A stretch of DNA of 64,000 nt, from assembly GCF_027359375.1 (NCBI RefSeq), contig NZ_CP114779.1:992001-1056000 (forward strand), written 5' to 3'. Made by a program: the position numbers and the translations under genes. Positions 40,014 through 41,827 of this stretch are shown here, in pieces (within the stretch, counting starts at the first letter, position 1; every line of letters starts with the position of its first letter). The notes below the pieces were generated by a model. It was not told the origin of the DNA. It did no database searches and saw nothing but the letters and a program-made list of their open reading frames with translations. The stretch comes from Prochlorococcus marinus str. MIT 0919 (GTDB lineage Bacteria > Cyanobacteriota > Cyanobacteriia > PCC-6307 > Cyanobiaceae).

Positions 40014-40118
40014 GTTCCCGCAAATTCCCCGTTAAAGGGCGTCAAAAAATTGTAAGGGCATCTCAATTCCTAGCAGATGCCCTTGAGTCAAGATCATAGT
40101 TGGGGTGCATCTTGACTC
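40014..40118. other. Three tandem hairpins, candidate structured RNA
   Basis: Three consecutive inverted repeats: GGGG/CCCC (40014-40033 region, with a loop of about 12), AAGGGCATCT/AGATGCCCTT (40054-40063 with 40075-40084) and GAGTCAAGAT/ATCTTGACTC (40085-40094 with 40109-40118). The last two have perfect ten-base arms and abut with no spacer. On the minus strand the middle hairpin is followed by ACAATTTTTT, like an intrinsic terminator. The element could be the end of a minus-strand small RNA. No protein frame fits. Confidence 0.5.
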
Positions 40119-40306
40119 CTTCTCTATTTCTAGAAACAAAAGAAGAAGTGGTCACTAAGTAAAAACTCCTGAATACAGCTTTATTGAAAAGTTTATTTAG
40201 CAAGGCTCAAGTCTCAATACAAACACAACAATATTTAGGCCAAAAAAAATGGGCCAAAAATCCCTAGAAATACTAATGGTAAAAAAAACTCTCGCAGGAC
40301 AAACCA

Positions 40307-40367
40307 TAAAAAATGGGCGCCCTCGACGAGCAGCGCCCTTATGGACAATTGTGTGAGGAGTGTCCTC
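40307..40367 (-). ncRNA. yfr1: Yfr1-like small regulatory RNA
   Basis: On the minus strand the 11-base element ACTCCTCACAC (40361-40351) matches the unpaired core of cyanobacterial sRNA Yfr1 exactly. It is followed by a strong terminator (GGGCGC ... GCGCCC, 40338-40333 and 40320-40315) and a run of T. TATAGT (40377-40372) lies in -10 position, predicting a start near 40367 and an RNA of about 60 nt, the known Yfr1 size. Yfr1 represses outer-membrane porin mRNAs by antisense pairing. The 5' stem-loop of other Yfr1 RNAs is not obvious here, so identity is likely but not certain. Confidence 0.7.
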
Positions 40368-40762
40368 CTTAACTATACCAATCTCAAAGGCACTTATAAC
40401 AATTGTTTGTTTTTGTACAAAAAATCCTTGATGTGCAAATAATTTGCCTAAGTCTTTTTAGTCTCTTCTCACTAGGAGATAGCCTAAGAATTTAGCCTTT
40501 CATCATATTTCAGATGGTCTTAAGTAACTGGTATTAATTAGCTCAAACCATTGCAAGAGTTGCTGTTTGATAGATTACCAAGCTTTTAAGAAGCAATTTA
40601 GATTGGATCATTTCAGCATTTCCAAAAAAGGAAAGTTGACAATAAAGGAGAGTTAAAAATTTGCCAAGGATCTACCGTAGTCAAAAAGCTAGCTTGAAAA
40701 TTATTAAGAAGTGTACTCTCTTAGTAGATCCTCTTATACAGTTAGACACCTTCTTCGTAATT
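40368..40762. other. Intergenic region between the sRNA candidate and a small membrane gene
   Basis: About 395 bases. Apart from the sRNA promoter at its left edge I see only an AAGGAGAG Shine-Dalgarno-like sequence at 40645-40652, ten bases before a TTG at 40661 that is in frame with the small membrane protein. There is a TTGACA at 40636 without a matching -10 box. No other gene is supported. Confidence 0.45.
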
Positions 40763-40894
40763 ATGGCAACTAAATTTCAGCCTCAGGACAATTTGTATGG
40801 TCTTTTTGTTGTAGTTGTTGTGTCAGGTTTTATTGTAGCTTCACTAGGCGCCCTACTAGGATATGAAAAAGTTTTCTTCCCATTCATAAATTAA
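40763..40894 (+). CDS. Small single-helix membrane protein
   Basis: A 43-residue peptide from the ATG at 40763 (MATKFQPQDNLYGLF), with one membrane helix (LFVVVVVSGFIVASLGALLG) and a short tail ending FFPFIN. I do not recognise it; it does not match HLIP, PsbX, PetM, PsaM or other small photosystem subunits that I can recall. The frame extends upstream to a TTG at 40661 with a good ribosome binding site, giving 77 residues with a basic N-terminal extension, so either start is possible. Confidence 0.55.
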   Translation: MATKFQPQDNLYGLFVVVVVSGFIVASLGALLGYEKVFFPFIN

Positions 40895-41203: not shown

Positions 41204-41827
41204 CTATTCCTCTAAATTATTAACTATTTGCACAACGCTTTGAGAAGGCAGATCAACAATCTTGACTTGTGAACTCTCATCAGAAGAAGGTCTTACCTTC
41301 TCCTCAGCTTTATTTGTTAATTCTTCTCCCTTAGAGCAAGCTTCCAAAGCCTCTCTCAACAATGAATCAAAAGTTGCTCCAGGCAATCTATGTCGAGCAA
41401 TTTCTAAAAAAGTTCTCGGCAAAGATTCACTAGCAGCATCTTTTAAAGCAGGATTGTTGCTTCTATGTTCCTGTTCATCTTCTATAGCCCTAATAAATCT
41501 CAGAGTTACTTCATGCTTTGTAGAAGCTTTAATCAAAGTGTCATTATCTTTAGATAGGTCATCTGTATCAGTTTCTAAATCATTAATACGTCTTTCCAAA
41601 CTAGAAAGTACTTCCTCAGCTTCCTTAAAGATATGAGCCAATTGGCCATCAGAAAGATTAGGGAGATCTGCTACATAAACCTTCCCATGATCTCTCAAAG
41701 TTAAAAAAGTAGGTTTTGGTCCCTGTCGAGTATCGACATTTGCAAAATTAGGTAAAGGGCGTCTTGGAGGAACAGGTCCTGCTGAACTACGCCTACGCGT
41801 TGAACGCTGTTGATTTTCAAAGGGCAT
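41204..41827 (-). CDS. Hypothetical picocyanobacterial protein
   Basis: A 207-residue soluble protein that I do not recognise beyond its picocyanobacterial look. It has an Arg/Pro-rich disordered N-terminus (to about residue 40), a globular part starting KPTFLTLRDHGKVYVADLP, a coiled-coil-like stretch (about 62-95, EAEEVLSSLERRINDLETDT), helices and an acidic disordered tail before VKIVDLPSQSVVQIVNNLEE. No catalytic motif is seen. Confidence 0.6.
   Translation of the reverse strand: MPFENQQRSTRRRSSAGPVPPRRPLPNFANVDTRQGPKPTFLTLRDHGKVYVADLPNLSDGQLAHIFKEAEEVLSSLERRINDLETDTDDLSKDNDTLIKASTKHEVTLRFIRAIEDEQEHRSNNPALKDAASESLPRTFLEIARHRLPGATFDSLLREALEACSKGEELTNKAEEKVRPSSDESSQVKIVDLPSQSVVQIVNNLEE

Follow-up and report, generated by a model that had tools for sequence, protein, structure and literature searches.

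Does a Prochlorococcus genome that carries the core sequence of the small RNA Yfr1 at an unfamiliar place hold a Yfr1 that has moved, or a different RNA that does the same work? Of 33 cyanobacterial genomes, only those of SS120 and MIT9211 were reported to lack Yfr1 (for MIT9211 in 2007); to our knowledge, it is otherwise almost universal in cyanobacteria. The preliminary description of an intergenic stretch in Prochlorococcus marinus MIT 0919 proposed a relocated or second copy of Yfr1. Yfr1 consists of a 5' stem-loop and a free core between two stems and, in marine strains, lies between guaB and trxA; its published criteria are a 5' stem-loop of 6-10 bp, the core within an unpaired stretch of 16-20 nt, and a GC-rich terminator, 6-9 bp long, that ends in a U tail (PMC2190773). 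In Yfr10, by comparison, a stem carries the core in its loop (PMC6778093, PMC2518516). We analyzed the element in a window of 64,000 nucleotides, in its complete genome and among its relatives, and our reading, with a probability of about 80%, is that it is the gene of a trans-acting Yfr10-type small RNA of about 58 nt, transcribed leftward, that inherited the job of Yfr1.

The element is a conserved 58-nt unit

The exact 11-base core described previously, ACTCCTCACAC, was confirmed on the minus strand at positions 40351-40361. The window has this one copy, against an expectation of 0.01, and a whole-genome exact search found this to be the sole exact copy in 1,716,770 bp. The TATAGT -10 box (40377-40372) is preceded by TG, giving an extended -10 element TGGTATAGT (40380-40372) that is conserved in relatives, and downstream of the core a GC-rich terminator hairpin GGGCGCUGCUCGUCGAGGGCGCCC (40338-40315) is followed by six T residues (40313-40308); the promoter box and the strong terminator reported earlier were thus both confirmed. 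From the spacing to the -10 box and from the T run, the transcript would start at about 40365 and end at 40308. The predicted 58 nt agree with the earlier estimate of about 60 nt, and the 5' end placed earlier at 40367 shifts to about 40365 with standard -10 spacing. The features are as follows.

40308-40365, minus strand: predicted Yfr10-type sRNA of about 58 nt, GGACACUCCUCACACAAUUGUCCAUAAGGGCGCUGCUCGUCGAGGGCGCCCAUUUUUU (congeneric identity and score with the R1 model described below; ends predicted)
40372-40380, minus strand: extended -10 promoter element TGGTATAGT (sequence; same distance in the sister genomes)
40351-40361, minus strand: ultraconserved core ACUCCUCACAC in a hairpin loop, with its first A in the closing pair (unpaired probability of the loop bases 0.9-1.0)
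40361-40365, minus strand: 5' arm of the core-bearing hairpin, GGACA (covariation with 40343-40347 in 14 relatives)
40343-40347, minus strand: 3' arm of the core-bearing hairpin, UGUCC (covariation)
40308-40338, minus strand: intrinsic terminator GGGCGCU-G-CUC-GUC-GAG-GGCGCCC, then A and U6 (four covarying stem pairs)

Among the three congeneric genomes the 58-nt unit is 98-100% identical and the -10 region 82-91%, as opposed to 39-43% for the upstream DNA and 25-35% for the downstream DNA (all ungapped). The element is present once, at the same locus, in both other species of the genus (G001 and G002). This confinement of identity to the 58 nt and the -10 region indicates strong selection on a unit that extends from promoter to terminator.

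The core is presented in a hairpin loop

An alignment of 14 relatives from several genera revealed 15 pairs, in the core hairpin and the terminator stem, that are formed in 100% of cells. Six of these pairs show compensatory changes; none of 500 shuffles was as good, and slid controls fell to 42-60% paired. Two of the covarying pairs, with G-C/C-G and C-G/G-C changes, belong to the 5-bp stem GGACA/UGUCC that encloses the core, and four to the terminator stem, whose apical CUCGuuGAG is also conserved. The preliminary description had found the usual 5' stem-loop not to be obvious. A stem is in fact present, GGACA (40365-40361) pairing with TGTCC (40347-40343), but it surrounds the core rather than standing before it. 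We rejected an alternative GAGG/CCUC hairpin that hides the core in minimum-energy folds started from 40367-40372, as G001 and G002 cannot form it; it uses bases ahead of the predicted start at 40365 and, within the genus, is peculiar to this genome.

We carried out the covariance-model check suggested in the preliminary description. At the gathering thresholds of Rfam no sRNA was found at the element, and a relaxed search gave 16.8 bits with RF02362 (Yfr10), below the threshold of 43. This low score indicates that the element departs in sequence from high-light Yfr10 outside its core, and because of it we use the term Yfr10-type without assigning the element to RF02362. The threshold was passed by four genomes of genus g18, which are probably high-light, and by G005. 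With R1, a covariance model of Yfr10-like RNAs built from 14 sequences including the element, the element scores 84.7 bits as a member of that model; g18 Yfr10 sequences score about 22-23 bits and Yfr1 sequences 9.8-13.6 bits. A locus of G005 whose core has one change (L169) gave 43.9 bits with RF02362 and 31.8 bits with R1.

The core in a hairpin loop, the 5-bp stem that is 100% paired and the intrinsic terminator are all as expected for the Yfr10 type. In common with Yfr10/Yfr18 of high-light Prochlorococcus (RF02362; PMC2518516, PMC6778093), the element has ACUCCUCACAC in a 5' hairpin loop, the last pair of the hairpin taking up the core's first A, a terminator-like hairpin at the 3' end followed by a T run, and Yfr2 as probable partner. 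Relatives of the element also stand in tandem directly upstream of Yfr2 (L149, L153 and L154), those of G028, G033 and G089 on the same strand as Yfr2, which is where high-light strains have their Yfr10. The element differs from Yfr10/Yfr18 in its stem (GGACA rather than AUCAGAAA), its terminator sequence and its sub-threshold Rfam score, and the window copy is alone, not adjoining Yfr2, with a predicted length of about 58 nt compared with 78.

In 2019 a Northern blot revealed a Yfr10 in SS120 (PMC6778093). The SS120-sized genome G012 has an ortholog of the element at the same locus (83.1 bits); the window genome and the MIT9211-sized one are of a different genus. Outside long reading frames G012 has one exact core, at the ortholog site, the other copy being inside a long ORF, and the ortholog is therefore most likely the RNA detected in SS120. 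A literature search of incomplete coverage found no earlier report of such an RNA for the MIT9211 lineage.

R1 detects relatives in 56 of the 400 genomes, spread over 30 of 59 genera, many of them multicopy and many alongside Yfr1. Other low-light-like lineages have up to six matches per genome to Yfr10-type RNAs (CGACACUCCUCACACAAGUUUGUCG and terminator; L045-L074 and other R1 matches), and G028, G033, G076 and G095 gave no match to the Rfam Yfr10 model despite their R1 matches. We set aside Yfr103, abundant in MIT9313, as a different RNA whose paralogs in Synechococcus CC9605 measure 290-328 nt (PMC5069720), and L042 of a deltaproteobacterial metagenome-assembled genome, which has the 18-mer but not the structure and is probably a chance match. 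A viral collection contained no match to the element.

The locus is inherited within the clade

At the loci examined in the genera g1, g11 and g17 we found one copy beside the same genes, with the exceptions of G259 and L039 (another copy). On one side lie a small membrane protein, a CxxC protein and the ORF at 41204-41827, and on the other, wherever the locus reaches that far, a lipid-A-disaccharide synthase-related gene (TIGR03492). These shared neighbors suggest that the RNA is an old resident of its place; relatives outside the clade have other neighbor genes. Of the two neighbors named in the preliminary description, the small membrane gene is kept across the clade, whereas the acyltransferase, a same-strand gene approximately 440 nt downstream of the element, has no match at the other clade loci.

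Two further observations concern the surroundings. The 43-residue membrane-type protein (MATKFQPQDNLYGLFVVVVVSGFIVASLGALLGYEKVFFPFIN; window positions 40763-40894, plus strand) has no Pfam or NCBIfam match and is found beside the sRNA clade-wide. Just downstream of the sRNA, at 40050-40174 on the minus strand, another non-coding stretch is conserved, with 82-83% identity in G001 and G002 and no match to an Rfam family. It comprises two hairpins, AGTCAAGAT...ATCTTGACT with loop GCACCCCAACTATG and then AGGGCATCT...AGATGCCCT, has a T-rich tail in two of the three genomes and contains AGGAGU, a complement of ACUCCU, twice; from its sequence it looks like another small RNA.

Yfr1 was lost once

The preliminary description had placed the element outside the Yfr1 context and named the guaB-trxA spacer as the place to look. 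That proved to be the right place, as the spacer of this genome is there without the core, and the genome search found no other copy of the core. The opposite outcome that had been considered, a better Yfr1 elsewhere with the present locus unconserved, is contradicted on both counts: the exact-core search found no other site and the locus is conserved in relatives. A covariance model built from seven Yfr1 sequences (R2) and run at E ≤ 0.001 against 400 Cyanobiaceae-type genomes finds Yfr1 in 338 of them. In the same scan there was no Yfr1 in this genome, and none in the 19 R1-positive genomes of g1 (3), g11 (13) and g17 (3), some of which are incomplete. When the guaB-trxA spacer was read directly, the core was absent in 10 of 10 clade genomes readable through and present in 14 of 14 others; the contig of G001 ends before trxA. 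A GuaB tree requires one change for the loss of Yfr1 (support 99/94).

The clade contains G002 (g1; one contig of 1,688,963 bp), which we take to match MIT9211, and G012 (g11; 1,751,080 bp), presumably SS120, and on these assumed identities it holds both strains with a reported absence of Yfr1. Because Yfr1 and relatives of the element occur in the same genera, both RNAs predate the loss: the ancestors of the clade had Yfr1 between guaB and trxA together with Yfr10-type RNAs, and Yfr1 was lost once. Given this clade-wide loss and the single copy of the core, the element is probably the only RNA left to control outer-membrane porins via ACUCCUCACAC.

The loop is complementary to porin start sites and to Yfr2

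In MED4, the porin PMM1121 is under repression by Yfr1, from which Yfr2 releases it; mutation of UCCU within the core abolishes the binding of both Yfr1 and Yfr10 to ppa mRNA, and the targets of Yfr10 and Yfr1 overlap only partly (PMC6778093). In the present genome, GUGUGAGGA stands a few bases before the ATG of the SLH/OprB porins at 628044 and 213888 and is a perfect complement of the loop UCCUCACAC; a third porin has GUGUGAG. The calculated energy between the loop and the porin site is -16.7 kcal/mol, whereas 75 start regions taken from the window gave a mean of -5.2 (S.D. 2.3) and a best value of -11.6. Porins keep a GUGUGAGGA-type site in G001, G002, G012, G089, G018, G090 and G117, all without Yfr1 in these searches. 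Across 22 genomes the pattern was found at 52 sites, of which at least three are antisense of Yfr10-type genes, and its reverse at 7; as the AGGA part is an ordinary Shine-Dalgarno sequence, specificity resides in the GUGUG extension alone. In G002 and G000 the other GTGTGAGGA-ATG matches, L209 (G002:454853) and L208 (G000:688102), lie in frames of a few codons and are probably due to chance, so the pattern alone is no proof of a target. The MIT9211-sized genome also has two near-identical tandem porins with the same leader, GGGCACAGTGTGAGGAACCCAATG (L211, G002:1131000-1135000).

The genome has one match to RF01701 (Cyano-1), at G000:740885-740952, which from its sequence and context we read as Yfr2. 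Carrying the complement of the core and not the core itself, it is the likely antagonist of the element: its 5' end, UUGUGAGGAGU, is a perfect complement of the loop and would form ten contiguous pairs with it (-16.6 kcal/mol). In the genomes searched, most of the core has its complement in the 5' end of Yfr2. The GUGAGGAG motif of Yfr2 is kept in the genomes checked, with small changes in a few copies, and Yfr2 is retained in each. Whole-sequence duplex prediction for the sRNA and Yfr2 was no better than for shuffles, but such prediction ignores intramolecular structure and is uninformative here, so the loop-only calculation was used instead.

Together with the findings in MED4, these complementarities lead us to propose a mechanism. 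The 58-nt RNA would be made from the extended -10 promoter; its 5' hairpin would expose the core ACUCCUCACAC in the loop, and the terminator would follow. The loop UCCUCACAC would bind the ribosome-binding site GUGUGAGGA ahead of the start codon of som/SLH-OprB porins and block the initiation of translation, and the 5' end of Yfr2, UUGUGAGGAGU, would bind the same loop bases and titrate the sRNA from its targets. That the RNA is transcribed, that it pairs in the cell, that it represses porins and that Yfr2 titrates it are here all predicted by analogy with Yfr1, Yfr10 and Yfr2 of MED4 (PMC6778093).

Alternative explanations

It is very improbable that the element is Yfr1 itself, moved from its place between guaB and trxA. 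With Yfr1 (PMC2190773) it does share the 11-nt core ACUCCUCACAC, a GC-rich terminator with U tail, a similar size and the complement in porin ribosome-binding sites, and Yfr1 is missing from its usual place. However, Yfr1 has a separate 5' stem-loop and presents the core single-stranded between two stems, whereas the element has no separate upstream stem-loop, its sole conserved 5' helix enclosing the core, and does not lie between guaB and trxA. With R2 the element reaches 15.7 bits, far from the 80-92 bits of two true Yfr1 sequences and from its own 84.7 bits with R1, and its locus is orthologous clade-wide, which overturns the proposal of a relocated or second Yfr1. Moreover, genera with Yfr1 at guaB-trxA also carry relatives of the element, and the occurrence of both RNAs together in, for example, G005, G028, G033, G076 and G095 largely refutes the idea.

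A trans-acting RNA could also be doubted altogether. The same-strand acyltransferase gene some 440 nt downstream might suggest a DNA or cis element, such as an attenuator or leader of that gene or a terminator, and a short open frame antisense to the element might suggest a small plus-strand reading frame. We consider this hardly probable, since the element stays at sister loci that have no match to the acyltransferase, both stems carry compensatory changes, conservation begins at the promoter and ends at the T run, and relatives outside the clade lie among other genes. Unlikely, though less so, is that this Yfr10-type RNA now serves mainly to buffer or decoy Yfr2 after the loss of Yfr1, its abundant partner. 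Its predicted pairing with Yfr2 is as strong as that with the porins, Yfr2 is present in every genome checked, and in MED4 these RNAs are bound more strongly by Yfr2 than by ppa mRNA (PMC6778093). Yet the full GUGUGAGGA complement persists at the porin sites of genomes that lack Yfr1, which a pure decoy would not need. Taken together, the sequence comparisons support the element well as a small-RNA gene, the only carrier of the exact core in this genome and the probable heir to the targets of Yfr1.

Meaning for Prochlorococcus

We lean toward the view that a low-light branch exchanged its core regulator: after a single loss of Yfr1, its porin targets and its antagonist Yfr2 passed to an RNA of other structure with the same core. 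If this is true, one Yfr10-type RNA, one Yfr2 and two or three porins would form a minimal natural version of the network in the genus. The Yfr1 gap of SS120, partly closed in 2019 by the detection of Yfr10, is now closed on the MIT9211 side as well; both trace to the same inherited locus, and Yfr1 disappeared only once. The R1 family, which lies outside the Rfam Yfr10 model, is widespread and is multicopy in deeper low-light lineages. The present genome is the simplest case of the Yfr1/Yfr10/Yfr2 system, with a single RNA that carries the core, a single one that carries its complement, and porin targets whose sites match perfectly, and it makes directly testable whether a core held in a hairpin loop can substitute for the open form of Yfr1.
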